Source: Owenia fusiformis (lineage: Eukaryota > Annelida > Polychaeta > Sabellida > Oweniidae). From it: a stretch of 64,000 bases of DNA. The DNA is taken from positions 29,273,936 through 29,337,935 of the forward strand of contig CAIIXF020000006.1 in the NCBI GenBank assembly GCA_903813345.2. Reading direction: 5' to 3'. Position 1 is the first letter of the stretch. Each line of letters begins with the position of its first letter. The notes below the pieces were generated by a model, which did not search any database, was not told where the DNA came from, and saw only the letters and a program-made list of their open reading frames with translations. The position numbers and the translations under genes are program-made. This document shows, in pieces, positions 1,747-25,199 of this stretch.

Positions 1747-4700
1747 ATGATGACAAAGAGCTTGTCACCTGCATTGTTTATGGCAGTGTTGATCATTGGA
1801 ACCTGTAGCCTACCAGTTGATAACAACGCAGACAGTGCAGATGATGTACTGGCACAGTTATTGAAGCAGCGCGAACTTTCAAAGGAAGAAAAGTTAGAGG
1901 TGTTGAAGCAGCGCAAACTTTCCGATGAAGAAAAAGAAGAACTGTTAAAGCTGCTATACGATTTGAAGGTACGTTGGTGCTAATTGTGTTCTTGGTAAAA
2001 GCCAAATCACATCAGAGGAGACGAGTATCACACAGTAATATTTAGATGAATAATTACAAGACAGATGCTTTTCCTGTATGCTTGCTTCCACATATCAGTA
2101 TTTCTTGACTTTGGCATTTACCCTAATTTTACGTGATTTGCATCATGAAGATAAGAATACTTTCCTTAAAAATAATAAAATACACCCTTGTTTTCATTCT
2201 TTCTTTTGAATCACAGAAAACTGGTTTGAACGTTACATTGCACTGCTAGGATAGAAAAATGAGTTCGGCAACAATGGAATAATATACTTACCACTGGGCT
2301 TTTATTTTGGATAAAGACGTATGAATATTTCTATAGATTGCATGTCACTAATCATAAACTAAAATTAGAAAAATGCCCATGAAAGAAGTTGTGAAAGGCC
2401 GAAAGAATGACAGAAATATAAAAGAGTTTTTGATGTAAAAATACAAACTGCAGATGCTTAAACAAGGCATTAGCATGATAAAATGTTACCACCTAGTTGC
2501 TCACAATATACAATCGAATGTCAGATTTTAATTTTTGAGCACTTGTAGCTGGTCCAGAAAAAATTGGTCAATTTGAAGCCAGTTGAAAAATACATTTTTG
2601 ACTTGTTTGGTGGTGGGTTATATCCTTTTTTGAGGTGCTAGCTTTAATGTCCCCGAAATGGTCTCAGATAGTACTTGTTTAATCTCTTGTACTTTTCTCT
2701 GCTGTTGTGTTTTGCTACTCTTGTTGTTTGTAGTTTAAAAGGTCATTGAAGGGCAACTCTCAGATTTGAACTTCTGAGAAATTGTAGATTATTTTGAAAA
2801 GATTGGTCAATTTTAAGCAAGTTGGTAAGAGACCTAATCACCTAATTGACCCTTTTACCACCAGAAGGACATTGAAGGTCAAGCCTTAAATCTAACAATC
2901 AGATGTGAACTCCTGCGAACTTAGAGATGATTTTGAAAGAAAATAGGTCAATTTGAAGCAAGTTGAAAAATACCTTTTTGACCTTTTTTTGCTTTGATAA
3001 GGCCATTGAATGTCAAATCCCTAATCTAATGTCAGATTTGAACTTCTGAGAACTTGTAAATGATTTTGAAAACTGGTCAAATTTGGTCAATTTGAAGCAA
3101 TTTAAAAATACAATTTTGTGTTTTTGTGAACTTGAGAAGGTCAAATCTAAAGTCAGATTTGGATTTCTGAGAACTTAAGAAGTTTTTGAAAAGTTGGTCG
3201 ATTTAAAGCAAGTTGAAAAAATACCTATTTGACATTTTTGACCTTTAGAAGGGCATTGAAGGTCCAATATTACATATATACCAATCAGATGTGAATATAT
3301 ATGATGTGGTATATAAGCAACGGTGTAGCATCATATAGTTTGTTATTTTATGATGGATCAAACATTCCATTCAGGGACTATTCCTCCCCTATAGATTTTA
3401 GGTTTTTGAGGATCAAAGAAAGCATTCTTCCCACTTTAAAACTATGGATAACTTCCAAAATTACCAGTTATAAATGGGATGCCTACGGCATTGAATTCGA
3501 AATTGATGAAAACAATATTATTTAATTAATAATTTTCAAACATGTACATTGTTCATTTTTCTATTTTGAAGGAAGGACCCTCGAAAGAGCTCCTAAGTCT
3601 TATCAAAGAATACAACCTTGAAGGATTGCTTGAAGGCACTGATAGTAACGTTAATGAAACTCCCGAAAAACATGTTTCCAACCACAAGGCACACACAAAG
3701 CATACCAAAAAGAAGAAAAAGACGTCAGCCAATGAAGCATCAAATAAAGTTTTGGATGAAGCACTAGTTATGAAGTCTCTGGAACACATGGCTGGTAAGA
3801 GAAAGACATCTTAATGTTTTTTTTCTCATTTGATCTTAGTAGAGACGTTTCTTTTGCTTGATATGTCATTAAATAGTCGTCCATCTCAGATGATTCCAAT
3901 ATTGTACTGTAATCACATATATTAGAATCGTAATAAGTATTGTTGTTTGTGTAGTCTAGTATATATATGTCATATTTTTAGCTCTTACCGCGTGGTGTGC
4001 TGGTCTGAAGGAGTTAGGACCAAAAATAGATGTCACCGAAGAGGCGTTGAAAAACAGAGTATTGGCTGGTTATATCGAAGGTGCTGTAGAAATTGTTAGC
4101 CGTAATCTGGAAATGATCGGTACGAATAAATGATGACACTTGAATAATGAATAACTACAGTAGATTGTACTTTTGTTCACAAAATAGTGTGTGGCCAATC
4201 TTCTTATCAGTATACAAATCTATCAAAACTTGTATTTCTTATTCTTTATTAATAAGTGCTATAAATATCGTCTCAACAAAAACAATTTAGTATTTGCTTA
4301 ATACAATACTCTCGGTAATTTTCACGAGTTTTGAAAAATCAAATTTCGGCGCTATTAAATTTCGCCGATTTAACTATTTTTTTAGTGCAATAAATATCCT
4401 CTTAACAAACAATTAAGTATATTTGCTAATACGCTTATAATTCGAAAATTTGAATTATTGCAAAATATGAGGCACTGTTGAATATGGTTCATAGTAGAAT
4501 TTAAATTTTCTTGGGAAAATGTGGCATGCTTATCACATGTTATAAAAGTATTTATTCATAAACGCCACAGGAGACAATGAAGGGAGCGCTGAGGGATCTG
4601 CTGAAAATGATGGAAGTGATCGTATCGACGATGATAAAGACATGGATATGTCCAAGATATCGGAAAAGATCTCGAATAAGATGCGTGAGATTTGTACTTC

Positions 4701-5994
4701 TTTGAACAGCCTTGAAGCTATTGGCGCAAAAGTAAGTAGCATTTTTAAATCAAGTAAAAACTCAATGAATCATGCATGCATGCATTCAATTGAAATACCA
4801 TTGTCTTAAGATTTATTTTTTATTCTAATTATTATAAAGCAAACAGTGGCCTAAGTCATTTTCTTTCCTTTACACGATTTTCAATAATTCAACTTATTGT
4901 AAGTGATCCAAGCAAAAAACAGTATTACTCAAAGGGGTAGCCAATTCAAAAGAACAAATGATCACTAAAACTGAATCATGTCAAAAGTTTGAAAGATGTT
5001 ACAAGAAACGTTAACGTTTAGCCCCTCAAGTATTCTAAAAAGGTGTTACAAGTTGATATGTGAAATCTTTTGGAACCATCAAGTCCTTTGAAACTAATTA
5101 CTTTCAGATTGAAGCAGGTGTGGCGAAAAAGAAAATGGTTGACGGTTTGAACGTTGAGACCAGAACCCATGAAAATCAAATTGAAGCTGGTGTGGCGGAA
5201 ACGAAATTAGTCGGTGGTTTGGAAGTTAAGACCAGAAATAGATCTCCAATTTCCAGAAGTTTCAAAGAAGATCAAGGGGCCGGCAGTCTACAGAAGACGG
5301 GGGAAATGGCACACCTAGCCAGGGACGTTGGGTACGAGATCGAGCTTAATAAACTGATTGAAGAACTTAGTGATAGCGCTCGGCCAATAGAGGAGCATAA
5401 GAAGAATGCGCTTGAAAAGAAGAATACGCTTGAAAAGGAGGTACAATTGCTCCGTTTTAATGAAAATCAAAATTCAAAGACAATTTGACTATTTTCTTTC
5501 GAATAACATAAATTCTATCTAACGAAAATGTGTAAGCATTTTCCCAAATAATATTATGAAATGTTAGAGTTTTATTTTCTGTATTGTTTCATTTGACAAG
5601 TTCGCTGTAATGGCACTTTATATGGTATGGCTTGTTTATTGGCTTCATATCACATTGGCGTTGTGCAGTTTTATTTAACATGACATCAAACTTTATTTGG
5701 TATGATTTCATATGACATCAATGTTGTACTTCATTTGCAATTGATATTTATGGTTTCATATTACTTGTGGGATACAAAATATTTGGTATAGTTTTCCTTA
5801 TCATGAGGCTTTCGCAATACATGATCATTTGATTTCATAACAACATTGGTTCTCCTGCACATTTTTTATTGCTACGGGCCGGGTGTTTGAGATACTTAAT
5901 TTGACATTTCTTTGTCTTTTATTTCTAGAAAAACGTTGAGGAACGTATCGAAGAATTACTTTTGAATCGTCTGGCACATTCTAGGAAACAATAA
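1747..5994 (+). CDS. Secreted repeat-family protein, copy A (six exons, about 380 residues)
   Basis: I do not recognise this family. Proposed exons are 1747-1968, 3572-3794, 3982-4119, 4571-4731, 5108-5440 and 5929-5994. Each junction has GT/AG, and the phases (0,1,1,0,0) join to one open frame of 381 codons. Exon 1 starts at tandem ATGs and encodes a signal peptide (hydrophobic core LFMAVLIIGTCS), then a Glu/Lys/Leu-rich helical stretch with two KQR(E/K)LS repeats. Exon 2 ends in a Lys/His-rich tail. Exon 3 holds ALTAWCAGLKEL and exon 4 is acidic, with IDDDKDMDMSKIS. Exon 5 has two diverged copies of the GL.VETRTH-type unit that is expanded in copy B, then a helical segment (EIELNKLIEEL). 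Exon 6 ends LLLNRLAHSRKQ. Secretion is inferred from the N terminus; function is unknown. Exons 1, 5 and 6 match copy B, which supports a real gene. The start could be 1747 or 1750. Confidence 0.72.
2450..3290 (-). mobile_element. Old copy of the GTCACCAC element with CTTCAATGACC-type repeats, in copy A intron 1
   Basis: Read on the - strand this carries the same right end seen at 11,050-11,100 (gtggtaacattttatcatgc-like, then the gccttgttta-like edge). It also has four or five diverged repeats of the unit that fills 9,255-10,990 (ttggtcaatttgaagcaagt read on the + strand). The left terminus with the gtcaccac hairpin is not visible, so the copy is truncated. It lies wholly within intron 1. 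Confidence 0.65.
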
Positions 5995-6524
5995 GTTAAA
6001 AGTGACTGAGCCCGGGATGGTGATGACGCAGATATATCTCATACTCGTTTCCCAGTTTGATTTTTAATTATGAAAACATCATACCTTGGAAATCCAAGAT
6101 GGATATATCTCCTAATTAGATTCAGTGATTTATATAGTATTCACACATAGCTAGGCAAGGTGTGTCCAATACCAGCCAATCAGAACACGCAATTTCACGT
6201 AACTGCATTCCATCAGATAACCAATAATTCACCCAAGGTCACTCCTTCTAGATTATATTGAAACTAATGAACTGAGTTCATATTTGAGTAAAATATCGGC
6301 ACTATTAAATAGTATCATAGGGAATAACAAGCTTCATGTATGTGCTACTGCAGGTCAAATGTTAAAGTGTTGTATGGTTGCCATGATGACAATCCATGAT
6401 ACCAACTGACACAAACAGAAGTGACCTTTGCAAAAGGTCTCCTTGAAATATATTTTTTAGGTCATTTCATATCTTTTAAGTAATTGTATAAAATATTTTG
6501 AAATGTTTGGAAAGAATTGAAGTC
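5995..6524. other. 3' flank of copy A, homologous to the flank of copy B
   Basis: The stretch near 6,105-6,160 (ctcctaatt.gattcagtga) matches 25,305-25,345 after copy B. A second match lies at 7,190-7,225 versus 25,373-25,400. So the duplication that made the two genes extended past the coding end, and 6,160-7,190 contains sequence not present in copy B. No gene is seen. Confidence 0.55.
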
Positions 6525-6690
6525 CATGTACTCAATGCATTGTGGAATGACCATTCTTTTCAGGCGTTGTTTCCTAAAATTAACACTCGATGCAAGCATC
6601 TCGTGCAAATTTTGGAAAGCAACACCTTCAAGGAATAGTAATTCCACATTTCATTGAGTACATGGCTTAAATCCTTAAATACGTTGCTAC
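6525..6690. repeat. Dispersed repeat shared with 14,600-14,745
   Basis: Both places carry caatgc.ttgtgg, then caggcgttgtttcctaaa, then aacaccttcaa, ending in atccttaaata, in the same order and orientation. One copy lies downstream of gene A and the other upstream of gene B. I cannot tell whether it is a small mobile element or a remnant of the segmental duplication. Confidence 0.65.
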
Positions 6691-6699
6691 CTTTTTAAC

Positions 6700-7188
6700 C
6701 CGGACACTGGTGGTCCGCTCGATAACGCTGGTTACCGAAACGGTTCGTCGTTTTGGTAACAAAATGTCGGAACGTCGAAGGTACGATTTTTCTTTTTTCC
6801 TTATTTCACGCGTTGTAGGCAGAATCCCCACGACGTTTTTCTCACAAATGTGTATCAGCATCATATGTTTTAGAAAATGTACATGTTTGTGAAAAAAAGG
6901 TTAAAAGTGCGGATCTCAACTGTTTTTCGAAAAACCGTTTATGTAACTTAAGTGAGGAATTAAATCTATGATTCTGTCGTCTTCTGAACTATTTGTTCGC
7001 AAATATGTACATTTTCTTAAACATATGATACTGACACACGTTTGTCTTAATAAAAATGTCGTGGGAATTCTGCCTACAACGTGTGAAATAAGGTAAAAAG
7101 AAAAATCGTACCTTCGATGTTCCGACATTTTGTTACCAAAACGAACCGTTTCGGTAACCAGCGTAATCGAGTGGATCACCAGTGCCGG
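6700..7188. mobile_element. Snap-back inverted-repeat element (MITE)
   Basis: The arms are about 190 bases and highly complementary: the left begins ccggacactggtggtccgct and the right ends as its near reverse complement. Both contain gtaacaaaatgtcgga and the cgtaggcagaatcccacgac-like core. The loop is about 95 bases. The reading frames here are mirror images produced by the arms, not genes. It interrupts the flank homology between copies A and B, so it inserted after their duplication. Confidence 0.85.
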
Positions 7189-8257
7189 ATGCAGTCAATG
7201 TATCTTTCATTACACGAAATATTGATGGAACGCTGATAGTAATACAGTATTCGTGTTCATATATGATTGCTTCGGGAATGAAGTAAGCTTTGTCTCAAAA
7301 ATAGATACATTAAGGAATTTTGCGGACAAGCATTGTCGTGTAAATCAAGATCAGATCGCAAATTGGGGGTCAAAAATGGTAAAAATGATTTGCCTTATCT
7401 GGTACTTTTGCAAATCTAAATCTGTCATATCTTTTCTCTAGAATCCCCGAATTCCATTAAGTAATGATGTATAGTAAAGATGTTACAGCTGTTTTAAGTT
7501 GTATACCAAGGAGGTAGAATTGGCATGTTGCGGACACTGAATAATAATCACATGCATTCAATAAAGCACATAAAACAATCAGAAATCAAAATACTCCTTG
7601 TTATTATAATTTATCTGATCTACAAAAGAAACAAATACAAGAAAATCATAAGTTCTTTTCATGAACACACCATATATTTAAAAAAAAAAAATATATATCA
7701 AATGCCTTTATTATTGACATTCAAATGGTATTGCATCTTTGACAATATCAATACTTTTCAATCATCATACCATTAACTTATGACCTCAGCAAACATTTAT
7801 CCACAAGTCAATACTTTGTAAAATACCTAATCCTCCGTTTAAGCAACAGTTGAGGAACAATTATCTTTTCAATACAATATAGAATATTTATACAAGAACA
7901 GTACCCAAACGTTGCGGACACTGAATTAGTTCATTAAAGATTCAACTTGTTATATACTAAAAGTTGCCATACCATGTCTGTCATCCAAAATGCCTGATAA
8001 TTTTGTTTTTCTGACACTTTCACTGTCATAATTCAATGATCATTATGATGTAACAGGTATGACAGGTGCAACAAAGGGTATATTTTGGGCCTTTTTCATC
8101 ATTATGAAGGGTCACTCTTGAAAAGTGCATATTTCGATGGTTTGTGAAAAGTGTATAATGTATTTTGTTTCCACATATTTGTTAAACAATGATATAAACT
8201 TCTTTTCTTCTTTGTTTTGCAGGTTATTTTAATGAAATCGGACTACAAAATCCTGAA
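7189..8257. other. No gene seen; short direct repeat
   Basis: AT-rich sequence without a supported gene. gttgcggacactgaat occurs near 7,525 and again near 7,913, bracketing about 390 bases, which could be a small insertion or chance. The beginning (7,190-7,225) matches the 3' flank of copy B. Confidence 0.4.
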
Positions 8258-9086
8258 TTAAGGTACAGCTGGAAAATAACATTTTGGTAAAAATTGCTAT
8301 ACCTGCATATGTTATTTTCTGGTACAAAATTAAGTATGAAGGCATGTGTGTGTTTCCTTGCTTTTTTCAGTAAAGTATCATTACACTGTCTACTTTTAGT
8401 AAACCTGGATACAGGTCAATGGTAGCTCCTGTAGTTGTCTGGAAACTTTGAAAGAAAATTTGGAAAAATAGAAAGTGTGAAATATCAGAATTTCCTGGAG
8501 TTCCCATTGAACTCCTACTATATATTCTTAAAGGAGACAATGCAATGATACTTTCCTGAAAAAAGCAAGGCAATTGACACATGTCTTCATACTTTATTTT
8601 GTACCAGAAAATAACATGTGCTGGTATAGCAATTTTTTACCAAAATGTTACTTTCCAGCTGTACCTTAAGGTCAGGGTGCATGATGGGAAATTTTCTGCA
8701 TTCCTCAATTGAGTCACATGTTATTTTTCAAACAAGAATCACTCCTTCCCTTCATTGTCTATATCTTCCAGTTTTGCACAAAGAGTGCACCTATGTGCCT
8801 AGAAAAGACTTGTGAGAAGAATGTTTTGATAAAGTGTATAAAAAACAAGAAAATTCAGTGAAAAAAATCAGAAAATTTCAGAAATTTTTTTCACTGAATT
8901 TTCTCATTTTTTATACATTTTACAAAACAAACCTTCTCACAAGGCTTTTCTAGGCACAGAAGTGCACTCTTTGTGCAAACTTGGAAGATGTAGACAATGT
9001 GGGGAAGGAGTTATTCATGTTTGAAAAATAACATGTGACTCAATTGAGGAATGCAGAAAATTTCCCAACATGCACCCTGTCCTTAA
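8258..9086. mobile_element. Paired TTAA-flanked hairpin elements, copy 1
   Basis: Two hairpins abut through a shared TTAA. The first (8,262-8,665) begins ggtacagctgg and ends ccagctgtacc; the second (8,670-9,082) begins ggtcagggtgcat and ends atgcaccctgtcc. TTAA stands at 8,258, 8,666 and 9,083. Duplicated TTAA is the target-site signature of piggyBac-type elements. There is no transposase, so these are non-autonomous. The same pair in the same order occurs at 35,619-36,444. Confidence 0.85.
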
Positions 9087-9130
9087 TAGCAACTTTCATA
9101 TATCCTGTCCATCGTTATAGAATTTTTTAT

Positions 9131-11100
9131 GTCACCACCAAAAGTGGTGACATATTGTTATGGTCTCCGTTTTTTTGCGACGGCGTCCGGCGGTTGGTGG
9201 TTGGCGTCCGGCGTCTGTAACAATTTCTTACAACTTCCTATAACTTAACAAATACTGTTTAGACTGACTTCAATTTTTTTCTAAATCATCTACATGTTCT
9301 CAGAAGTTCAAATCTGACTTTAGATTTGACATTTGACCTTCAATGACCTTCTCAAGGTCAAAAAGGTCTTTTTTCAACTTGCTTCAAATTGACTAAATTT
9401 TTTTTCAAAATCATCTACATGTTCTCAGAAATTCAAATCTGACTTTAGATTTGACATTTGACCTTCAAATTTGACTTTAGATTTGACATTTGACCTTCAA
9501 TGACCTTCTCAAGGTCAAAAAAAGGTCAAAAAGGTCTGTTTTCAACTTGCTTCAAATTGACTAAATTTTTTTTTCAAAATCATCTACGTGTTCTCAGAAA
9601 TTCAAATCTGACTTAAGATTTGACTTAAGATTTGACACTTGACCTTCAATGACCTTCTCAAGGTCAAAAAAGGTCTGTTTTCAACTTGCTTCAAATTGAC
9701 TAAAAAAAATTTCAAAATCATCTACGTGTTCTCAGAAATTCAAATCTGACTTAAGATTTGACTTAAGATTTGACATTTGACCTTCAAATGACCTTCTCAA
9801 AGTCAAAAAAGGTCAAAAAGGTCTTTTTTCAACTTGCTTCAAATTGACTAAATTTTTTTTTCAAAATCATCTACATGTTCTCAGAAATTCAAATCTGACT
9901 TTAGATTTGACATTTGACCTTCAATGACCTTCTCAAGGTCAAAAAAGGTCTGTTTTCAACTTGCTTCAAATTGACTAAATTTTTTTTTCAAAATCATCTA
10001 CGTGTTCTCAGAAATTCAAATCTGACTTAAGATTTGACTTAAGATTTGACATTTGACCTTCAATGACCTTCTCAAGGTCAAAAAAGGTCAAAAATGTCTG
10101 TTTTCAACTTGCTTCAAATTGACTAAAAAAAATTTTCAAAATCATCTACGTGTTCTCAGAAATTCAAATCTGACTTAAGATTTGACTTAAGATTTGACAT
10201 TTGACCTTCAATGACCTTCTCAATGTCAAAAAAGGTCAAAAAGGTATTTTTTCACCTTGCTTCAAATTGACTAAATTTTTTTTCAAAATCATCTACATGT
10301 TCTCAGAAATTCAAATATGACTTTAGATTTGACATTTGACCTTCAATGACCTTCTCAAGGTCAAAAAAGGTCAAAAAGGTTTGTTTTCAACTTGCTTCAA
10401 ATTGACTAAAAAAAATTTTCAAAATCATCTACGTGTTCTCAGAAATTCAAATCTGACTTTAGATTTGACTTAAGATTTGACATTTGACCTTCAATGACCT
10501 TCTCAAAGTCAAAAAAGGTCAAAAAGGTCTTTTTTCAACTTACTTCAAATTGACTTAATTTTTTTTTCAAAATCATCTACATGTTCTCAGAAATTCAAAT
10601 ATGACTTTAGATTTGACATTTGACCTTCAATGACCTTCTCAATGTCAAAAAAGGTCAAAAAGGTATTTTTTCATCTTGCTTCAAATTGACTAATTTTTTT
10701 TTCAAAATCATCTACATGTTCTCAGAAATTCAAATATGACTTTAGATTTGACATTTGACCTTCAATGACCTTCTCAAGGTCAAAAAAGGTCAAAAAGGTC
10801 TTTTTTCAACTTGCTTCAAATTGACTAATTTTTTTTTCAAAATCATCTACATGTTCTCAGAAATTCAAATCTGACTTTAGATTTGACATTTGACCTTTAA
10901 TGACCTTCTCAAGGTCAAAAAAGGTCTGTTTTCAACTTGCTTCAAATTGACCAAATTTTTTTTTCAAAATCATCTACATCTTTTCATAAGTTCAAATTTG
11001 ACTTTACAAGTTCTCAGAAATTCAAATCTGACTTAAGTTTGAACTCATAATATTGTGAGCAACTAGGTGGTGACATTTTGTCATGTTAATGCCTTGTTTA
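9131..11100 (+). mobile_element. GTCACCAC element with a satellite-like interior
   Basis: The left end is gtcaccaccaaaagtggtga, itself a hairpin, followed by a tggtctccg and ggcgtccggcg region. The right end is aggtggtgacattttgtc, then atgttaatgccttgttta. About a dozen tandem units of some 125-165 bases fill the middle (see separate entry). Short copies without the array occur elsewhere in the window (44,195; 47,459; 51,350; 54,480; 56,370; 58,262; 63,128), so the array appears to have grown inside one lineage of the element. No transposase is seen. Confidence 0.8.
9255..10990. repeat. Tandem array, about 12 units of 125-165 bp
   Basis: Each unit contains, in order, caaaatcatctacatgttct, cagaaattcaaatctgactt, gatttgacatttgacc, ttcaatgaccttctcaagg, a run of aaggtcaaaa and tttcaacttgcttcaaat. 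Units differ by duplication of the gacttaagatttg segment and in A/T run length. It lies inside the GTCACCAC element and is non-coding. Confidence 0.9.
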
Positions 11101-11225
11101 TTTTATGCTTTCATACATTGAATACCCCAGGACTTCAACATAAATACACTTTCAACAACTGCAAAAGCACATTAAAAGCTTAAATATATACTAGTTCAGA
11201 AATTAACAAGACACACAGTGATAAA

Positions 11226-12674
11226 TATCGCACTTTGAAGAGCAAACTGGCCACCATGCAATTTACCCAGCATGCCAAAAACCTAATCAGACCTTGGCAC
11301 TAGTCTGCTCTTGCATCTGTAAACATTTCAAGTTGACAAGGTTAGCAGTTTTCCTGCAATTTTGATGAGAAGAATTTATTTGTAGTCTCGAACTTTGGGA
11401 AAATTTAGATAACATTGTTTGTGACCTAATTTGATGACCGTCGACCTTGAAAATTTCACTTTTTCAGACCTCAGTAGGTGTTTTGTAATAAGCTGACCTA
11501 AATTTAAATCCAAAATAACAATTTAGAAAATCAAATTTTTGACCTTTTCAAGGTCAATGAAGGTCAACGAAAGGTCAAATCTGAAATCTAAGGTCAGATT
11601 TGAACTTCTGAGAACTTGTAGATGTTTTAAAAAAAAAATTGGTCAATTTGGAGCAAGTTGAAAAATTCAAAATGGCCGCCAAATTGAAAAATTCAAAATG
11701 GCCACTATGTAATTCAGCCAGCATACCCAAAACCTAATCAGATCTTGGCAATAGTCTGCTCTTGCATCTGTAAAAATTTCAAGTTGAACGGATAAGTGGT
11801 TTTCCTGGAATTTTGATGATAAGATTTGTTGAAAAATTCAAAATGGCCGCCATGTAGTTTACCCAGCGTGCCCTTAACCTAATCAGATCTTGGCACTAGT
11901 CTGCTATTGCATGTGTAAAAATTTCAAGTTGAACAGGTTAGCGGTTTTCTTGGAATTTTGATGACAAGAATTGATTTGTAGTCTCAAACTTTGAGAAACT
12001 TGGATAACATCATTTGTGACCTAGTTTAATGACCTTGACCTTCGACCTTGAAAATTTCACTTTTTCAGACCTCAGTAGGTGTTTTGTAATTAAGCTGACC
12101 TAAATTTAAATCCAAAATATCAATTTAGAAAATCAACTCTTTTGACCTTTTCAAGGTCACTGAAGGTGAATGAAAGGTCAAATTTGAAATCTAAGGTCAG
12201 ATTTGAACTTCTGAGAACTTGTAGATGTTTTTAAAAAAAAAATTGGTCAATTTGGAGCAAGTTGAAAAATTCAAAATGGCCGCCAAATTGAAAAATTCAA
12301 AATGGCCACCATGTAATTCAGCCAGCATACCCAAAACCTAATCAGATCTTGGCAATAGTCTGCTCTTGCATCTGTAAAAATTTCAAGTTGAACGGATAAG
12401 TGGTTTTCCTGGAATTTTGATGACAAGATTTGTTGAAAAATTCAAAATGGCCGCCACGTAGTTTACCCAGCATGCCCTTAACCTAATTAGATCTTGGTAC
12501 TAGTCTGCTCTTGCATCTGTAAAAATTTCAAGTTGAACAGGTAAGCAGTTATCCTGGAAATTTGATGACAAGATTTGGTTTATGTGCCGCCCGCCCGCCC
12601 GCCCGCCCGCCCGCACGCCCGCCCGCCCAACAGCACAAGACGACGACAATATAGCACTTTTTCAAAGTGCGATA
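11226..12674. mobile_element. Inverted-repeat element with termini tatcgcactttgaa
   Basis: The left end tatcgcactttgaa is matched exactly by ttcaaagtgcgata at the right. Inside, a block of about 650 bases is duplicated: cctaatcagatcttggcaat and caaaatggccgcca recur, with gaccttttcaaggtca tracts between. The ggtcaatttg and aacttctgagaacttg parts resemble the satellite unit at 9,255, so the two elements share internal sequence. No coding capacity is visible. Confidence 0.75.
12586..12630. repeat. GCCC simple repeat
   Basis: A run of cgcccgccc tetramers near the right end of the tatcgcac element, with one cgcacgccc interruption. It gives a local GC spike in otherwise AT-rich DNA. Reading frames through it code only for Gly/Arg/Ala runs. 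Confidence 0.9.
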
Positions 12675-14310: not shown

Positions 14311-14599
14311 AAATCATAATTAATGCACTCGCTGTGGCTTTATTCAGGCGTCACTAGTATGCATTGAGAGGTGTTTTTTATACACATGCACATTAACCTT
14401 TTTATAGTTCCACATTGAACGTCTTTGTATGATTTGCCAACTACCCAATTATACACGCATTGTTTACGGATGAGTAGGCATAAATTCCGCCCTAGTAGAT
14501 GTCAAATTACGCCCGCGCAGACGTAAAATTACTTTTTTGGACGTAAATTACGCCTGTGATGGCAAATAATAGTCTCTGAGCTTGTATTCGCCAACACTC

Positions 14600-14745
14600 A
14601 ATGCCTTGTGGCTGCTTCATTCCACTCAGGCGTTGTTTCCTAAACGTTACATTCCCTCTTCTTGGTCATGCAAAGATTTGGAAATAACACCTTCAATTGA
14701 ATGATTCAGCATACAAGTCCAGGGCTTCAATCCTTAAATAATTAT
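14600..14745. repeat. Dispersed repeat shared with 6,525-6,690
   Basis: Same block order as the copy downstream of gene A (gcgttgtttcctaaa, then aacaccttcaa, then atccttaaata). It lies between two inverted-repeat elements upstream of gene B. Confidence 0.65.
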
Positions 14746-14764
14746 AGTCGATTCTAAGAAAATA

Positions 14765-15653
14765 CAGGGTGGTCCAAAAAAGTAAACCCTTGCAACAAGC
14801 TATATCTAATTTATTACTTGTATTAATGAGCTGATATTCTCACATGTTTTAGAGGAAGGTATAAAGTTTTACTGTGTACCATTAAGGTCACGTAGTCTTA
14901 ATTCTTGTAGAAGTTACATGGCATCAACAGACATGCCTGATTATGGATGATGTGCTCAACCAATAGCTCCACGGTTCTTGATTAATGCTGCAATGCGAAT
15001 GTTGAAGTTGTTCACTGCTCCTTCCAGCATATCTAGGAGTGATGTTAAAGAAATAATTGTTGTACCAGTACACCCCCAATAGGATCCACATGGAATTCCA
15101 CTTGGCTATGTGTGGCAATCAATGTAGATTCCACATGGAATCTCCACTATTTCCTCATAAATTTGATCCACATGGATCCACATTATTGTCACACATTTCA
15201 GCGTCGACATTTTGCAAGGATTCAAGAGGAATAAAGAGGGAAAACTTTCCGAATTCCTGCACGTGGATCAATTAACGTGCCTAAAATCCATGCGGAATTC
15301 ACATGCAATCCATGTGGGTTTCATGAGGATTCCAGATGAATCCTCGTGGAATAGGTTCAATGTGGATGTGGATTGGTTGAGTATCTAATGTTTTTATTAG
15401 CAGTAAACAACTTCAACATTCAGATAACGGCAGTTATCCAGAACCGTGGAGCATGGATTGAACACATTACCCATTTATCAGGCATGTCTGTAGATGCCAT
15501 GTAACTTCTGTAAAACTTAAGGCTGAGTGACCTTTATGGTATCAACAAAAATTTTAGACCGTCATCTAGAACATGTGAGAATATCAGCTCATTAGTGCAA
15601 GTAATAACTGAGATACAGCTTGTTGCAATGGTTCACTTTTTTGGACCACCCTG
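14765..15653. mobile_element. Mariner-like inverted element, TA target, transposase remnants in both arms
   Basis: The termini are cagggtggtccaaaaaagt and its complement, flanked by TA at 14,763 and 15,654, as expected for the Tc1/mariner superfamily. Each arm is about 275 bases. Both arms, read toward the nearest end, can be translated as a VNNFNI.I.A.I.NRGA-like C-terminal transposase fragment. This suggests the element formed from two opposed 3' ends. The centre (15,060-15,375) is rich in palindromic ccacatgg words. Confidence 0.8.
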
Positions 15654-15965
15654 TATAATGCATTGATTATCGACTTTTTCCCTTCAAAAATTACAATTTT
15701 TATTTCGTTAATTATAGCATAAATGCAGCATAGACTTGAACATTTTATAACTAAACATGATTCAATGAATCGATGTAGATTAACTATTGATATACCATTA
15801 CTAAAAACTCGTTCGTAAGATATCAAGGATGTTACCTTGTATACGTCGTATAATTGAACATTCATCAAATCATAGCTCCTTTACACCGTCTTTTGCCAAT
15901 GTATAATTACTTTGATATCTTTTCTTAGATTTTTTAACCTGGATTGATCTGTGACAGAGACAAAG

Positions 15966-18900
15966 ATGATGACAAAGAGCTTGCCAACTGCATTGTTTAT
16001 GGTAGTGTTGATCATGGGAACCTGTAGCCTACCAGTTGTTAACAACGCAGACAGCGCAGTTGAACTACTAGCACAGTTGTTGGAGCGCGAACTTTCCATG
16101 GAAAAAAAGGTAGAGTTGTTGAAACATAGTCTAGTCACAAGCCTCTGTGCTCCACCCCCTCTTCTTGACTTTACACCTTTTCACAGAGTAGTTGGGTCAC
16201 AGTTGGTTGTACCATGGGCTTTCAATTAGAAGGGTATACAACTCTGTGTAATAAGCATGAGGCCTTCAAAATGAGCAATGCCATGCTTCCCTTTTATGGT
16301 AATATTTCAAAAAGTATTAAATACTTAATGTATGTTTTAGTATTATTTTAAATATAAATCAATTTTCAATATGATCAAAGCATAAAATATATTCAATCGC
16401 ATGTAAAAGTAAACAAAAGAGACAAATAAGAATAAGAGGTATCAAGATGTTCTCTTCGAGTATTGCATTATGGGTAGTTATTCAAGAACGCATTCCAATA
16501 AAAACATAATTTGTGGGAGAATGTTCACTTTGTGTATTTTCATAATTATGATGAATTTCATTTTTTTTATTAGATTATCAACATATATGTAGATGATTAT
16601 GTTTTTATTTTTGAGTTATTTCTTTAAATCATCCATAAAAAGTACAAAATAAGATTTTCTTGAAATGTGTACATTCTCCAATTTTGAAAACCCAAAGGCA
16701 ATGCTTATGTATGAAATATGGGAAGTTGCCTACCCTTCTAGTTGAAAGCTGAAAGCCCATGGTTGTAGCTAGATTATTGAAGCAGCGCGAACTTTCAATG
16801 GAAGAAACGGTATTCATACTTTCATTTTGAACCATGCAGAAATCTGGTTTGAGCATGCATTGTGCTGCAAGGATAAAATATTAGCGCGGCAAAATGGAAT
16901 AATATACTATAATATGACTTTTATTAGAAAAAGACGTCTAAATTTACTCGTATATATACTTCTATAAATTGCATGCTAAAAATCTGCTAATTATTTCCGC
17001 TGAACCAACGCGAAATTGCAAATCTCCCATTCTAAACACAACTCTAAAGCTGATCGGCATAGCATGTTGAATAGGAATGTAAAGGTTACATGCATCGCTA
17101 TTCCCACAAAGTTATAACATGATCATATGAGGAACTGAGAGTGAAATATATTGAGATATTGATCCCGCAAGGCGACCGTCTACGCTCGCCGCAGAAATTC
17201 ACTGATTGAATTGATCTGCGGTCGACGTACGGCCGTCGTGCGACAAATTTGACTTGGATTTTACCGATTAAAATCTTAGGGCAGGCGCAAGATGACCGTA
17301 AGCCCGACGTGCGGCCACTGTGGACTCTTTCTGCGGCCTGGCTACGCACTGTTGATTTCTACGGTCCAAATATACACCAAAACGCCCCGCAAAACCGTTA
17401 ATTTAATTTTTCAAATCTACCCTGTCTTTGGAAAAACAATGATTGTGAGTCTCACCATCCTCCGATCACAGGGCTGGTATGGATTCTGGACACCTGCTTA
17501 GGAGGATGGAGTCTCACACTACACCGTTTTTCTTCAAACTTGTTCCATTAAAACCTTCACAGATATACCTTTCAGTAGAGACATTGCTTTTGTTTACAAA
17601 GTCCCTCGTTTTAGCGGCGTTTTGGTCCCCAGATGCGAGAAGTTGCAAATCCTTAGAGATTTCAACCACAATCCTTGATATCTCGCCGGTTCTTCTATCA
17701 CTCTCCCCCATATTCTGCGCAAGATCTCCCATTACAACCCTCCATCATTGCATCAACATGCATGTTTATTACATGAAACGCAGCAATTCTGAAAAAACCT
17801 ACGCAACTGTTCGAAATTGACCAAAACGCCTCGTTGTCTTCCAAAACGCCCGCAGAGTCTATGACTACAAACGTGTAGTTTCAAGGTGTATAGATCCAAC
17901 GGGGCGTTTTGGAAGAGAGCGGTTCGTTTTGATCAATTTATGATATATCTGGAAAGTTTCAATGGTTCAATCAAATTCTGTAATTGTTCTGTTTCAATTT
18001 TAAATGCATCTAAACCCCCTGTCTGTTAGTGTTATGAAAAATACGTTGTCTGTGAATTAAGTAAGTTCAATGGGACAACGTACATTCGAGTTGACAACAT
18101 ACACCATGGGCTTTCAATAAGAAGGCTATGCAACTCTGCGTAATAACATGAGACCTTCAAAATGAGCAATGTCATGCTTCCCTTTTATGGTAATATTTCA
18201 AAAAGTATTAGATAAATGTATAGATTTATGAACTTTATTACACATTCATACCCATAAAAGGTTAAGTGTACACAAAGTAAACACTAATTTTACAATATAT
18301 CAATACAACAGAAAACAGTATATATAACAACACACAAAATTAACACTTCATAATAAATAAATAAGTAAATAAATGAACAAATAAATATGCATCATGGATA
18401 AGCACATGAATGGTGATTGTGATACGCGTCCATTGTTTATGTCATATATCACACCCTTCTATGTTATATTACATTTATGAATAAATTCTGCTACAATTTC
18501 AATTTCTTTATTTTCACAAGACATACAATATTGGAAAAAAAGTGAATCGTCCTCCATGTTGAAAAGGTGTTTAATTGGGTTGCCGTGTGATACAAGTTTA
18601 TCGAGCATTTTCTTTCTATATATACTGTATTTTTTACATGAACGCATTATGTGTTTTTCGTTTTCTATTAAATTGCAAACCTCGCAAATTCTTTCATCGA
18701 TCTTTAATTTTGGGCGTTCGTATCTACCCGTTTCTATTTTTAATTTGTGGTTACTGATACGAAACTTTGTTAGACTTCGTCGTAAATGCCCATTTGAAAT
18801 TGAATCTAAATATGGTTCGAACCTGAAATTGCTTTTAAATATTTTGTATGTATTCAGTTTGCGACATTGGTCGGAATTCAATTGATTTCGCCAATAATCT

Positions 18901-21900
18901 TCAAAACTAATTTTTGATTTACAAACAACTTCGTATGCGTCAATAGTATATTCTTTTACATCTAAAGTATTATTGATATTGCTGGGAGTATTTCCTGAAA
19001 ATGATACTACCTCTAATTTATCCATTACACTTTTAAAATTCAGCATCCACGATGACTTGTTGATCTTTGATAAGTCATTTGATGTAGTAAGTGCTTCTGA
19101 TAATAAGATGTATGACGTATTTAACATGTGATTATAGAAATTAGTAGCTTGTTTGAATATATGAACATCATATATCATATATATCAATCATCATATAGTT
19201 GTATATGTTTTAGTATTAGTTTGAATAAAGTATTTAGAGGTTATGTCACTATGACGTGAAATATGCCTGAGTTCTCCCAATATAGGCCGACCTTGGGAGG
19301 CTCTATATTTGGGCAAGAACGAAGGCATATTTCACGTCATAGTGACATAACTGATGTATTACATGCCTTTGTTCCCATGGGGGTCATTAACAGAACTTTC
19401 GTAAAGTTACGAATTCGCAAGTCAATTGTTAATTTTACGAATTTGGTAAATGTGCATTAACAGAACTTTCGTAAAGTTACGAACGATTCGCAAAGTTACG
19501 AAAAAATGACGTCACGTATGCTTTCGTTCGTAACTTTAATAGCACCTCAGACCCTTTCATAACTTTGCGAATGGCACATTTCTCATCCAATTCTTATGTA
19601 AGGTATACAGGTTGGCAAAAAGAAATTGTTCTCTATACGCATGCTGAGTTTCAAGCTAAAATATCTACCTATTCTTACATGATAAGCAAATATGTTCCTG
19701 AGCTGGGAATCTTTGAAATCGCGGAGACAGGTTTGATCACAGCGCGCAATGATATCAAATGACATCATATTTTTATTTGTGCTAAATAATGATATAAGAT
19801 GACGTCACAATTTGAAATTCGTTTACGAACGATAAAACTTATGAATGACTTACGAAAGTGTTCTGTTAATGGCCGATTCGTAACTTTATGAATTCGTAAA
19901 TCATTCGTAACTTTTTAAATATTTACGAATTTCATAAAGTTACGAATTACGAATTGGTAACTTTGCGAAAGTTCTGTTAATGACCCCATGGTTACTTTGT
20001 ATCAATGACGTGACGTCATGATATTATCATGGTTATTAAAGAAATCTAATATCAAAACGAGGTAAGCGGGCTATATCGGGGTAATCGGGCAATATCGGTG
20101 GATATAGCTCGCTAACTTTCCCATTGACTTCCATACAAATGCTTCGCTAGGTATGTAATACTATTAAATATAGTATAGTATTAAATACTTAATGTATGTT
20201 TTAGTATTATTTTGAATATAAATCAATTTTCAATATGATTTAAGCATAAAATATATTCAATATCATGTAAAAGTAAACAAAAAAGACCAATAGGAATAAG
20301 AGGTATCAAGATGTTCTCTTCGAGTATTGCATTGTGGGTAATTATTCAAGAACACATTCCAATAAAAACATAATTTGTGAGAGAATGTTCACTTTCTGTA
20401 TTGTCATAAGTATGATGAATTCCATTTTTATCAAATTATCAACATGTATGTAGATAATCATGTTTTTATTTTTGAGTTATTTCTTTAAATCATCAATGGA
20501 AAGTACAATATAAGATTTTCTCGGAATGTGTACATTCTCCAATTTTGAAAACCAAGGCAATGCTTATGTATGAAATATGGGAAGTTGCCTACCCTTCTAG
20601 TTGAAAGCCCATGCATACACTTATGATTTTTAAAATTATAGCTAAAATATTAATACTTATTAAATCTTCAAAAGATCTTAATTGTGCTGTTTAAAAAACA
20701 TATTCTCATAAAAATCTTCGACACGTTTAGACGACAGGGGAGGGAATGATCAAAGGAAAGTGTAAAAACACAACATTTTCCAACCGAACAATTATATGGG
20801 TAGATTGACTACGAAAAAAAATCGAGCACTGTTCGAAAATCTTTTAACGTTATTAGAAAGTTAAATGTCTTCCTAAACGAATACACAAAAAATCAAACAT
20901 GAAATCCTTAATGCATTCATCGGATTATTTTTTTAAACCTACATCATTGTCTTTGCTTCAAATTTGTTAAATAGTGACATCGTACATCAAAAATGTACTA
21001 CGGTATATTTTGTCACTGTACCTTGTCGATGGTTAGGCGTGGCGTAGGACTTTTGGAAATTGCTGCGTTAAATGTAATAAATATGTTGATGCAGAGATGG
21101 AGGGTTGTAATGGGAGTCCTTGTGCAAAATAAAGGGGAGAATGATAAAAGAACTGGCGATATATCGAGGCTTTTGGTTGAAATCTCTGAAGATTTACATC
21201 GTCTCACATCTGGGGACCAAAACGCCGCTAAAACGAGCGACTCTGTACACAAACGCAATGTCTCGAGTGAAAGGTATTTCTGTGAAGGTTTTAATGGAAC
21301 AAGTTTGAAGAAAAACGGTGTACTGTGAGACTCACAATCATTGATTTTCCAAAGAAAGGGTAGGTTTAAAATTCAAATTAACGGTTTTGCGGGGCGTTTT
21401 GGTTTCGATACGCCCCGGTGATTTAGTACTGCGTGATGCCTTCGGTCTGTCGAAATATAGCCCTCGCAAGCTCAGCCTATATTGATGACAGACCTCAGGC
21501 ATAGATTTAATAGGTGGAATTACACCTACGATGTAAAAGCGCTTTTTAAAATCCTATCGGGTTTCGACCCGCCTTTAGAGTCAGGTGTAATCACGATCGC
21601 GGATTTAGAAAAGCGCTTTTGTAATCCTCCCAGACCCCTAGTCATTAAAAACCGCTTTCACACCCAAAGGCGGTTTAACGTGTAGGTGTAATACCGATTG
21701 GTTTTCAAGGCGCTTTAACTCGATTTTACACTGAACGAAAACTATATTTGCGCATGAGCATCAAGCATGTTATTGATTTCCGGTGTGGAGGAAACTTCAA
21801 AAAACAAAATTCAAATATTGCGCAAAACTCAATCAAATCACCAAAATGTCGAAACAAAGTAGAATTTATTGGGACCACGTCAATACTGAGCGTATGCTTT

Positions 21901-24900
21901 CGATTAAAATATGAAAAATGATAAAATAACGGACGAAATTACCCCTTCTTTCAGTTATACGCCCAGGGCTTATATACGAGAAATTCCGGTACTATTGTAG
22001 ATTGGGGAAGGCGAGGGGAGGGGATGATTGAATAGTTGAAATTACCTCTCTACAATGAAGTCAAAAAAATGACGAGATCTTTGTCTTGTCCACATCGTTC
22101 GTTCCTGTCCCATATTACCAAGGATGCCAAACAGCCCCAACAAAAACAAAAGTACCATCTTCATTTTACTGGATCTCTCTTGGATCTCTCCTAACGACCG
22201 AGCTTCTCTCTTTGCGCTCTTGTGCATTGTTTTCCATGCTTTCTTTAGCACATATTTGTTACGATTTAAGAAAAAAAGGAACATACAGTATCGGATCATT
22301 TTGAATCTCCAGAGATGGCGCTACGGTTGAAAGTGAATATCTAAATAGCAGATTTTGATGCAAATGCGATGGTTGATGGCAAATTTTTGTCTTAAATCAG
22401 TCTAAAAGCGCTTTAGAAAAATCAAGTGTAATCACGAAAAGTTGTCTTCAAGGCGCTTTTAAAATTCTGGTGTAATCAGGATTGCGGTTTTCTAGCCTAC
22501 GTTACCCAAAACGCCTTGAAAACGCCTTTAGCCATGAAATAGGTGTAATTCCACTAAATGATACGGACATAACTGCTAAGTATAGTGTACAGCAATAATG
22601 CGTTGTGAACCTATTCGAATTATGCAGTCGCATTCCACGGCTGTGCCATCGTTTTGATTCCCAACCGTGAAGGTGATAATTCTATTTCTACATGTTTTAG
22701 ATCAAACTGTTCCCTTAACTTAATACACCCAAATCTCCCAATGCTTCGTGTCATTCTACTTCCAATACATTAGACTTCGTGTGCTGTTACAGACAGATTT
22801 AGTGATGAAACGGTTCAATATGTTGTTTGTACTATTCTATCCCGTTGCAAATTGAATATAGTACAGTGAGGTCCACTGAAACTAATTTGTTTTCAGATTG
22901 GATCTGATTTGGTGGGAAAGAAATTAGACAACGGTTTGGAGGTTGAGACTAGAACTCACCCGTATATAGTGGAAAAGAAATTAGACAACGGTTTGGCAGT
23001 TGAGACTAGAACTCACCCGTATATGGTGGAAAAGAAATTAGACAACGGTTTGGCAGTTGAGACTAGATCTTACCCGTATATAGTGGAAAAGAAATTAGAC
23101 AACGGTTTGGAGGTTGAGACTAGAACTCACCCGTATATAGTGGAAAAGAAATTAGACAACGGTTTGGCAGTTGAGACTAGAACTCACCCGTATATGGTGG
23201 AAAAGAAATTAGACAACGGTTTGGCAGTTGAGACTAGATCTTACCCGTATATAGTGGAAAATAAATTAGACAACGGTTTGGAGGTTGAGACTAGAACTCA
23301 CCCGTATATGGTGGAAAAGAAATTAAACAACGGTTTGGAAGTTGAGACTAGAACTCACCCGTATCCGGTGGAAAAGAAATTAAACAACGGTTTGGAAGTT
23401 GAGACTAGAACTCACCCGTATCCGGTGGAAAAGAAATTAAACAACGGTTTGGAAGTTGAGACTAGAACTCACCCGTATATGGTGGAAAAGAAATTAGACA
23501 ACGGTTTGGCAGTTGAGACTAGATCTTACCCGTATATAGTGGAAAAGAAATTAGACAACGGTTTGGAGGTTGAGACTAGAACTCACCCGTATATGGTGGA
23601 AAAGAAATTAAACAACGGCTTGGAAGTTGAGACTAGAACTCACCCGTATCCGGTGGAAAAGAAATTAAACAACGGTTTGGAAGTTGAGACTAGAACTCAC
23701 CCGTATATGGTGGAAAAGAAATTAGACAACGGTTTGGCAGTTGAGACTAGATCTTACCCGTATATAGTGGAAAAGAAATTAGACAACGGTTTGGAGGTTG
23801 AGACTAGAACTCACCCGTATATGGTGGAAAAGAAATTAAACAACGGTTTGGAAGTTGAGACTAGAACTCACCCGTATATGGTGGAAAAGAAATTAAACAA
23901 CGGTTTGGAGGTTGAGACTAGAACTCACCCGTATATGGTGGAAAAGAAATTAGACAACGGTTTGGCAGTTGAGACTAGATCTTACCCGTATATAGTGGAA
24001 AAGAAATTAGACAACGGTTTGGCAGTTGAGACTAGAACTCACCCGTATATGGTGGAAAAGAAATTAAACAACGGTTTGGAGGTTGAGACTAGAACTCACC
24101 CGTATATGGTGGAAAAAAAATTAGACAACGGTTTGGCAGTTGAGACTAGATCTTACCCGTATATAGTGGAAAAGAAATTAGACAACGGTTTGGCAGTTGA
24201 GACTAGAACTCACCCGTATATGGTGGAAAAGAAATTAGACAACGGTTTGGCAGTTGAGACTAGATCTTACCCGTATATAGTGGAAAAGAAATTAGACAAC
24301 GGTTTGGCAGTTGAGACTAGAACTCACCCGTATATGGTGGAAAAGAAATTAGACAACGGTTTGGCAGTTGAGACTAGATCTTACCCGTATATAGTGGAAA
24401 AGAAATTAGACAACGGTTTGGCAGTTGAGACTAGAACTCACCCGTATATGGTGGAAAAGAAATTAGACAACGGTTTGGCAGTTGAGACCAGAACCCATCC
24501 AACTCCAATTTCAAGAAGTTTCAAAGGCGAGCAGCAGGCTGGCAGTCTCTTGGAGACGGAGGAAATGCAACACTTAGTCAGAGACGCGAAGTACGAGATC
24601 GAGCTTAATAAACTGATTGAAGAACTTCGTGATAGCGCCCAGCCAATAGAGGAGCATAAGAAGACGACGCTTGAAAAGAAGGTACATTGCCCACTTTCTA
24701 ATTCCTTTTCGTTCGCAGTAACATTTTTTGGCATTGTATTTACGAATAGACAAGATGCGAGTAGAAATAATCTTAATTTACGCCATCAAAAAGTGATGTC
24801 ATATTTAAAATCTACATGTAAAAGTACATCTAGAAATATGGTTTCGAAAATTGTTCATCAACTTTAAAAATTTAATTTTTTGGGGAAAATGTGAATTCTA

Positions 24901-25199
24901 GTTCGGGGAGAATCCCCATAGACCCTTTGTAATAAAATCACAAAAAGTGAAATATCTTTTCTTTTTTTGAACAGATAATATTTTCTTTTGCTGGTAACTA
25001 AGCCTACCTACTCGCATTCAAGTTATTGGCAATTTTATATTGTTTGAATAAAGGAGAGGGAACTTTTACAATGTCAAACATAAACTTTGCTTTTTCCAGC
25101 TTATGGATGATTAATCATATTATTCTTTTGTCTTTTTTCCAGGACAACCTTGAACAACGTATCCAGGAATTCCTTTTGGATCGTCTGGCACAATTCTAG
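15966..25199 (+). CDS. Secreted tandem-repeat protein, copy B (28 x 19-residue repeat); possibly incomplete
   Basis: This is a paralogue of the gene at 1,747-5,994. Exon 1 (15,966 to about 16,109) encodes a signal peptide nearly identical to copy A (LFMVVLIMGTCS), then LLAQLLERELSMEKK before a weak GT donor. The large exon 22,897-24,681 (TTTTCAG acceptor, GTACAT donor) encodes 595 residues: IGSD, 28 units of 19 residues, then a helical tail (EIELNKLIEELRDSAQPIEE) matching copy A exon 5. The last exon is 25,143-25,199, ending FLLDRLAQF. All three exons are phase 0, so splicing 1 to 5 to 6 keeps the frame (about 661 residues). Counterparts of copy A exons 2-4 are not visible in 16,990-22,890, which is full of mobile elements. 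The missing middle, the weak donor and the insertion near exon 1 leave open that the 5' part is dead. The open 28-unit frame argues that at least the 3' part was recently functional. Role unknown. Confidence 0.6.
16212..16762. mobile_element. MITE with ccatgggctttcaa termini inserted beside copy B exon 1
   Basis: The left end ccatgggctttcaattagaa and the right end, ending ttctagttgaaagctgaaagcccatgg-like with ccatgg at its tip, are inverted. It is flanked by TTGTA at 16,207 and 16,763, a 5-base target-site duplication. Just past it, 16,770-16,812 repeats part of exon 1 (LLKQRELSMEE), so the insertion split the original repeat region of exon 1. A related element is at 18,104-20,614. Confidence 0.85.
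16770..16812 (+). pseudogene. Detached exon 1 fragment of copy B
   Basis: It translates as RLLKQRELSMEE, matching the helical repeat of exon 1 in copy A (LLKQRELSKEE). It lies just downstream of the inserted MITE and is followed by sequence homologous to copy A intron 1 (16,840-16,940 versus 2,215-2,330). It has no own start. Confidence 0.65.
17160..17345. repeat. Partial copy of the element at 13,430
   Basis: Shares cgctcgccgcagaaattcac, gaattgatctgcggtcgac and gtgcgacaaat with the right part of 13,430-13,923, in the same order. The left terminus is missing. It abuts the inverted block that starts at about 17,370. Confidence 0.7.
17370..17935 (-). mobile_element. Inverted partner block with caaaacgccccg ends
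   Basis: Begins ccaaaacgccccgcaaaacc and ends cggggcgttttgg. Much of it is the reverse complement of 20,990-21,425, including a conserved short frame (separate entries). The two blocks face each other about 3 kb apart, with other elements nested between. Confidence 0.7.
17514..17732 (-). CDS. Short conserved frame in inverted block, copy 1 (72 residues)
   Basis: Unrecognised. The product contains RTGEISRIVVEISKDL, then SGDQNAAKT and CEGFNGTSLKKNG before a stop. The frame at 21,110-21,328 has the same length and stop position and differs mainly by conservative changes (E/D, I/L, R/K). That pattern suggests it was under protein-level selection, probably as part of a transposon protein or captured exon. 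It has no signal peptide or membrane segment. It may be one exon, since a possible AG acceptor precedes the ATG. Confidence 0.4.
   Translation of the reverse strand: MGDLAQNMGESDRRTGEISRIVVEISKDLQLLASGDQNAAKTRDFVNKSNVSTERYICEGFNGTSLKKNGVV
18459..19187 (-). mobile_element. Non-LTR retrotransposon 3' end (reverse-transcriptase C-terminal region)
   Basis: The 242-residue frame holds a block typical of the C terminus of animal LINE polyproteins: a basic LTKFRISNHKLKIETGRY stretch, then a Cys/His knuckle ICEVCN...EKHIMRSCKKY. The catalytic reverse-transcriptase and endonuclease domains are absent, so this is a 5'-truncated copy, as is usual for LINEs. The start codon is arbitrary. It sits inside the expanded ccatgggc element. 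The clade cannot be assigned by eye. Confidence 0.7.
19240..19352. repeat. Short inverted repeat ttatgtcactatgacgtgaa
   Basis: ttatgtcactatgacgtgaa at the left is matched by ttcacgtcatagtgacataa at the right, with about 70 bases between containing ctcccaatataggccgacc. It may be a tiny MITE or the end of a larger one. Confidence 0.7.
19380..19987. mobile_element. MITE with ggggtcattaacagaacttt termini
   Basis: The inverted ends are ggggtcattaacagaactt and aagttctgttaatgacccc, flanked by ATG on both sides (19,377 and 19,988). The interior has several cgtaaagttacgaa words in both orientations. It is non-coding and nested in the 18,104-20,614 element. Confidence 0.85.
20990..21425 (+). mobile_element. 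Inverted partner block of 17,370-17,935
   Basis: The reverse complement of much of the 17,370 block, ending gcggggcgttttgg then a second inverted tacgccccgg. It carries the second copy of the conserved short frame. Confidence 0.65.
21110..21328 (+). CDS. Short conserved frame in inverted block, copy 2 (72 residues)
   Basis: The product runs MGVLVQNKGENDKRTGDIS, then VEISEDLHRLTSGDQNAAKT and FNGTSLKKNGVL before TGA. It aligns without gaps to the - strand frame at 17,514-17,732. The frame stays open upstream to 20,993, but that part is not conserved, so I begin at the shared ATG. Function unknown. A possible AG precedes it (gatgcagag), so an internal exon is possible. Confidence 0.4.
   Translation: MGVLVQNKGENDKRTGDISRLLVEISEDLHRLTSGDQNAAKTSDSVHKRNVSSERYFCEGFNGTSLKKNGVL
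21511..22555. mobile_element. PIF/Harbinger-like element remnant with ggtggaattacacct ends
   Basis: The left end taggtggaattacaccta is inverted as taggtgtaattccacta at the right. Longer imperfect inverted homology continues inward (aaaagcgctttt; ggtgtaatca.gat.gcgg). The - strand frame inside (next entry) has a transposase-like start. A TAA target is plausible on both sides but not clean. Confidence 0.6.
22042..22299 (-). pseudogene. Possible Harbinger-type transposase N-terminal fragment
   Basis: An 85-residue frame with a basic stretch, a hydrophobic run (MVLLFLLGLFGILG) and then RTMWTRQRSRHFFDFIVER. The last part resembles the W-x-R-x-R-S segment found before the catalytic domain in PIF/Harbinger nucleases. 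That is a by-eye resemblance only. No DDE domain follows. The hydrophobic run could instead mean a small membrane protein exon. Confidence 0.3.
22912..24507 (+). repeat. Coding minisatellite, 28 units of 57 bp
   Basis: Each unit encodes V-E-K-K-L-(D/N)-N-G-L-(A/E)-V-E-T-R-(T-H/S-Y)-P-Y-(M/I/P). Nearly every difference falls at five residue positions, and synonymous change is rare (one ggc for ggt, one aaa for aag), so the array expanded or was homogenised very recently. The order shows higher-order structure: pairs of an A-V-E-T-R-T-H unit and an A-V-E-T-R-S-Y unit alternate toward the 3' end, while N-N-G-L-E units cluster in the middle. The frame is open throughout. Confidence 0.97.
24745..24975 (+). 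repeat. Dispersed repeat in copy B intron, inverted copy at 31,465
   Basis: Contains atgcgagtagaaataatctt, gatgtcatatttaaaatcta, ggggagaatccccatagacc and cacaaaaagtgaaatatctt. All recur in reverse complement and reverse order at about 31,465-31,695. No inverted termini are obvious, so the element class is unknown. Confidence 0.8.

Follow-up and report, generated by a model that had tools for sequence, protein, structure and literature searches.

Neighboring genes for putatively secreted proteins with two and 28 tandem repeat units in Owenia fusiformis

The window analyzed, a stretch of 64,000 nucleotides from the annelid Owenia fusiformis (contig CAIIXF020000006.1), contains two neighboring gene models on its forward strand, here called A and B. 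Both were proposed in an initial annotation as models of 380 and 661 residues, and we recovered them in place with compatible phases. Copy A (1747-5994) comprises six exons. The first (1747-1968; 74 amino acids, phase 0) supplies a start codon, a putative signal peptide and a charged segment, and is homologous to the first exon of B (15966-16109; 48 amino acids), which likewise supplies a start codon and signal peptide. The evidence for exons 2-4 of A (3572-3794, 3982-4119 and 4571-4731) consists of open frames and splice signals; exon 2 has no counterpart in B, and a tblastn comparison of all three with the B region returned no match and no trace of them. Exon 5 (5108-5440) encodes two 24-residue units and a tail, and exon 6 (5929-5994), which carries the stop codon, is homologous to the last exon of B (25143-25199), which carries its stop codon too. 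Copy B (15966-25199) has three exons, the middle of which (22897-24681; 595 amino acids) consists of 28 units and a tail. The array itself occupies 22912-24507, with 57 bp to each unit and VEKKLDNGLAVETRTHPYM as the commonest residues, and the tail (24508-24681) is homologous to that of A exon 5 and is predicted, at low confidence, to form a helix. All seven introns of the two models are bounded by GT and AG, phases agree throughout, and every exon common to A and B has phase-0 borders.

Alignment of the shared exons gave 130 identical bases of 144 for exon 1, 153 of 182 for the repeat-exon tail and 47 of 56 for the last exon, values reached by none of 200 shuffles in each case. This bears out the proposal that signal-peptide, repeat and last exons are common to both copies. 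Similarity extends to the 35 bases upstream of the start codon, the 60 bases upstream of the repeat exon and one patch in intron 1 (0/200 shuffles each), and to the 30 bases upstream of the last exon (1/200). Five of six further intron or flanking stretches aligned no better than shuffled sequence (60, 84, 159, 162 and 188 of 200 shuffles equalled or exceeded the observed score); the sixth, which lies immediately 3' of the repeat exon, gave a borderline value (10/200). Downstream of both genes are short matching patches (6102-6130 with 25299-25327, and 7185-7220 with 25366-25401). Homology is thus mostly confined to, and centered on, the shared exons, as expected from an older duplication in which exons were conserved. 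At the level of sequence, the gene pair is real.

The 28 units of B are in register, and all 27 spacings between them are exactly 19 residues, as the initial annotation had it (Tandem Repeats Finder, TRF, score 2715). It had also assigned two copies of this 19-residue unit to A; two units are indeed present there, but they recur every 24 residues (72 bp, 1.9 copies) and only a core is common with B. That core, K-[LM]-x-x-G-L-x-V-x-T-R, is kept in all 30 units of the two proteins, while the linker differs and is five residues longer in A. Among the units of B we found 12 DNA and nine protein variants, with a mean pairwise identity of 93% and 42 identical pairs of 378. Eight of the 28 carry SYPYI in place of THPY[IMP] or THPTP, each of them with A at position 10. 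Units four apart are more similar than expected (34 of 2,000 shuffles reach the observed value, which is the best of eight distances, uncorrected), and the values at the other seven distances were reached by 245 to 1,864 of the shuffles; this may be a hint of duplication in blocks. The claim of a duplicated family whose repeat number differs more than tenfold between neighbors is supported by these counts. The accompanying suggestion of recent divergence fits the array, given the likeness of its units, and fits less well the gene duplication, for which dS is 0.26 and introns are mostly unalignable.

We do not take the open frame of such an array as proof of a gene. When 20,000 random 57-mers drawn from the window were each repeated, 13,726 left one or more frames open on one strand, and so an open array by itself proves nothing. 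A 21-bp tandem array at 61867-62679, which served as a control, has stop-free runs of 213 codons on the plus strand and 164 on the minus strand, with open reading frames of 223 and 173 amino acids; its openness is probably due to chance. The case is therefore carried by the homologous flanks and the splice sites.

Evidence of selection since the duplication is marginal. Across the 126 codons common to A and B, dN is 0.149 and dS 0.264, a ratio of 0.56 (Fisher P 0.052). By part, the ratio is 0.43 in the tail (P 0.044), 0.57 in exon 1 (P 0.34), 1.1 in the last exon (P 1.0) and 0.55 in tail and last exon together (P 0.14). Within units 1-27 of B, nine of 11 codon variants encode an amino acid other than that of the commonest codon, or eight changing against three silent when GAA/GAG is counted as one silent change; with changing and silent sites in a ratio of about 3.8 to 1, we judge these changes neutral-like. 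A stronger claim based on introns was dropped, since the single well-aligned patch has 24 mismatches, which by eye is not clearly above the rate of amino acid-changing differences.

We next consider whether the proteins belong to a known group. Neither A nor B has a credible relative in Pfam, NCBIfam or PDB, and parts of B have none in IMG/VR, phages, plasmids or prokaryotes. This reproduces the annotation's failure to place the family, against libraries without a general animal proteome, and the proteins are unrecognised in that sense only. For a 114-residue query from the end of B (its final two units, the tail and the last exon), five stretches in IMG/VR and 61 in 84,980 prokaryote genomes matched a pattern and none was confirmed. 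The units and tail (590 amino acids) had no tblastn match in phages. Two plasmid records aligned to B, at E 8e-12 (22% identity) and 5e-5 (25%). On translation, each proves to be a tandem array with a unit of about 19 residues whose sequence is unrelated to B, and two units plus tail had no match among plasmids; the match is therefore one of period, and we rejected both records as relatives. Arrays of this period do occur elsewhere: the C-terminal part of a plasmid pLS20_p028-family conjugation protein from Terrisporobacter (positions 601-1419 of its record) is composed of 19-residue units, unrelated in sequence to those of B. Twelve peptide strings from A and B have no occurrence in the 5.39 million papers searched, granin-like literature contained no relative, and in the wider literature none was evident from title and start of abstract among the matches listed.

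Several weak profile matches were set aside. Units of the TRH precursor have the sequence QHPG. The TRH family (PF05438) scored 36.6 over the whole B repeat exon, above its cut-off of 27.8, but not one stretch passes alone and no unit contains QHPG, which marks the score as a repeat artefact. KAR9 likewise exceeded its whole-protein Pfam cut-off with no stretch passing alone, and the same lack of any passing stretch applied to CHS5_N, Actin and DUF4785_2nd in Pfam and to one NCBIfam family. We took as chance two NCBIfam matches (E 0.06-0.07) and three PDB DNA-adenine-methylase chains (E 0.09-0.3) on A, Nop5_N (E 0.13) and a gelsolin model (E 4) on A exons 1-4, and ProQ_C (E 0.18) on two units. 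A match to a transposon protein would have spoken against the initial annotation; Pfam at E up to 1 gave no family for A and five for the B repeat exon, none from a transposon.

Structure prediction suggests, at low confidence, that the repeat folds into a long ribbon of hairpins. For 229 residues of B, aligned in seven rows, the best AlphaFold model, whose mean pLDDT is 49.9 against 28-39 for the other four, gives each unit two strands and places a helix at the C-terminus; this tail helix is mostly below 50. For nine units of B, the best model again has two strands per unit (mean pLDDT 70.4, against 24-27 for the other four); the 20 rows of this second alignment are register-shifted copies of one array, and it is therefore not independent. 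Foldseek found no match in PDB at E 0.001 with either model (0 of 496 and 0 of 497). The ranking by E-value was headed by designed proteins for the first model and by BamB for the second, with TM near 0.2. Ranked by probability, the CPAP G-box came top among the best 50 of 496 and 497, with 4bxp at 1.00 and 0.99.

The CPAP/SAS-4 G-box (TCP10 domain) is the closest structural comparison. The CPAP report describes roughly 20 strands in a single-layer sheet, where PDG turns are frequent and a hydrophobic core is lacking; in 2013 this free-standing meander was, to the authors' knowledge, unique among natural proteins (PMC3776556). A later report likened MORN repeats to it, naming the CPAP domain as their nearest structure and giving their unit as 23 residues with GxG and YEGEW motifs (PMC7725318). 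The predicted sheet of the B array resembles CPAP's single antiparallel layer in placing repeated hairpins in one open, meander-like sheet, and its DNG turn recalls the PDG turns of CPAP (PMC3776556). Foldseek probabilities for CPAP chains range from 0.69 to 1.00 among the matches listed, and TM reaches 0.54/0.58 (4ld3_A; rmsd 5.3, E 0.17). Against this, only one of five models converged, E-values run from 0.01 to 0.40 with none below 0.001, and CPAP is centriolar, whereas A and B are putatively secreted and B has 28 near-identical units. Pfam matched the G-box neither to the B repeat exon (E up to 1) nor to A exon 5, tail or two units (E up to 10), and PDB sequence matches at E up to 10 did not include it either; MORN has no Pfam match, and its GxG and YEGEW motifs are absent from the 28 B units. 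Sequence searches thus support membership of neither family.

OspA is a bacterial lipoprotein with globular caps. Its single-layer sheet was among the matches listed in both PDB fold searches (probability 0.85 and 0.90), but with TM of only 0.25-0.45 to the B-array query. Three predicted viral structures pass E 0.001, and the best of them is an uncharacterised phage protein: A0A6J7XI16 (E 1.8e-5, TM 0.75/0.60), A0A6J5KQX6 (E 6.8e-4), likewise an uncharacterised phage protein, and the unnamed A0A6G5XZ17 are the closest folds by E-value. The first two are only 8-9% identical to the B array, and such a match of prediction to prediction may reflect generic meander sheets.

We favor, tentatively, the reading that A and B are tandemly duplicated and encode secreted proteins of a family that probably occurs in a single lineage. 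In each protein, a signal peptide would be followed by a short stretch of charged residues, then by an array whose beta-hairpin units share the conserved core, and finally by a helical tail, the hairpins and helix being low-confidence predictions. Secretion, inferred in the initial annotation, is suggested by a hydrophobic N-terminus in both: of all 11-residue windows, the one beginning at residue 10 has the highest hydropathy (2.61 in A, 2.59 in B), compared with best values beyond residue 30 of 1.56 and 0.73. Unequal exchange or slippage within the repeat exon would have expanded the B array to 28 units, leaving the frame unbroken because the unit is a multiple of three bases. After removal of the signal peptide, the hairpins may line up next to one another as an extended sheet that lengthens with unit number, the array most likely acting as an extracellular spacer or scaffold and the tail serving association. 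In favor of this reading we counted the exon-centered homology, the similar sequence upstream of both shared acceptors, the phase-0 borders, the core kept in all units, the four-unit similarity, two strands per unit in both best models, the C-terminal helix of the first and the CPAP probabilities; against it, the weak models, the absence of a significant PDB match, a phage model that fits better than CPAP, weak constraint and neutral-like unit changes. It is distinctly improbable on present evidence that a secreted animal protein is built on a free-standing single-layer sheet with about 56 strands and that the number of repeats tunes its length in neighboring paralogues. If true, B would be an extracellular, much longer counterpart of the CPAP/MORN meander; a correct fold prediction would mean that open beta-sheets lacking a hydrophobic core include an extracellular example.

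Secreted tandem-repeat paralogues with unequal unit numbers are an already known kind. Mussel foot proteins are secreted and vary in repeats. Schistosome polymorphic mucins and sea urchin SpTransformer are likewise described as secreted invertebrate families that vary in repeats, as A and B do; all three appear to differ from A and B in unit and composition. Should both copies be expressed, they would form a natural pair differing in repeat number, spacing and middle part, useful for learning how repeat number affects a secreted protein.

Alternatively, but in our view unlikely, the genes encode multi-copy peptide precursors, in which cleavage at the KK of each unit would release many near-identical 17-residue peptides, as in precursors of neuropeptides or sperm-activating peptides. 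Paralogues of such precursors can differ in copy number. The hydrophobic N-terminus, the tandem near-identical units, the KK in 27 of 28 B units and a mature B protein free of cysteine all fit. KK is, however, a convertase site of lesser use, and it occurs in only one of the two A units, where a different stretch replaces HPYMVE; the linker is not conserved. A repeated amidation glycine or disulfide is common in neuropeptide precursors, not universal; B has one GKK and A none, and hence no repeated amidation signal, nor does mature B have cysteine for a disulfide.

A further possibility, which we also regard as doubtful, concerns B itself: A works, and B is a decaying or chimeric duplicate from which exons 2-4 and the former donor of exon 1 were lost, or in which they were never present, its array having grown neutrally. 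The exon-1 donor of B reads AAG/GTAGAG across the splice site, where A has TTAGAG; it is weak and non-homologous to A's, and the junction of exon 1 with the repeat exon therefore has no support from homology. Behind exon 1 lies a transposon-like insertion (16212-16762), read by eye from inverted ends CCATGGGCTTTCA flanked on both sides by TTGTA. Just beyond it is a stranded piece of exon 1 (16774-16807, reading LLKQRELSMEE, with 97% identity to A 1858-1891 across 34 bp), followed by homology to A intron 1 (16810-16943). Because of donor, insertion and stranded piece, B may be a damaged gene or a shortened working one. Decay would also agree with the missing exons 2-4, the neutral-looking array changes and the ease with which such arrays stay open. 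Yet all three B exons are in frame, with last intron and acceptors intact, and the tail dN/dS of 0.43 (P 0.044) suggests constraint, in a test blind to which copy is constrained. The donor at 16109 is moreover the best GT among those scanned in 15990-16260 and lies at the 95th percentile of plus-strand GT sites, like the exon-3 donor of A, by a generic weight matrix. Were B dying, the expansion of repeats in this duplicate would be nothing out of the ordinary.

An adhesive or matrix function of the kind served by the Lys/Tyr repeats of mussel foot proteins or tube-worm cements is very unlikely: Tyr does account for 36 of the 640 mature residues of B, and Lys+Arg for 15%, but A has four Tyr in 359, neither protein is basic (pI 5.35 for A, 6.02 for B), and Gly amounts to only 32 of 640 in B.

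Across the window, Rfam at gathering scores and tRNA scans gave no match. An exon of NELFB/COBRA1, from which we took the window to be animal DNA, lies at 38527-39345 on the plus strand (PF06209, Pfam E 1.8e-101), with what by eye is likely its first exon at 37520-37849. On the minus strand, a fragment at 32491-32793 resembles an FkbM-type methyltransferase (PF05050, E 2.3e-4), although its 21.8 bits fall short of the cut-off, 22.7. A satellite-like array at 9432-11004 has periods of 135-283 bp with shorter repeats nested inside. An element starting CCATGGGCTTTCAA is present, by eye, in two copies, 16212-16762 and about 18104-20613, the second interrupted by sequence with a 242-amino acid open reading frame (18459-19187, minus strand) for which Pfam gives only a sub-threshold zf-nanos match (E 0.29). 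Also by eye, elements at 27060-29030 share GTTCACACCAACGGCG-type ends in both directions and are possibly a nested DNA transposon family.
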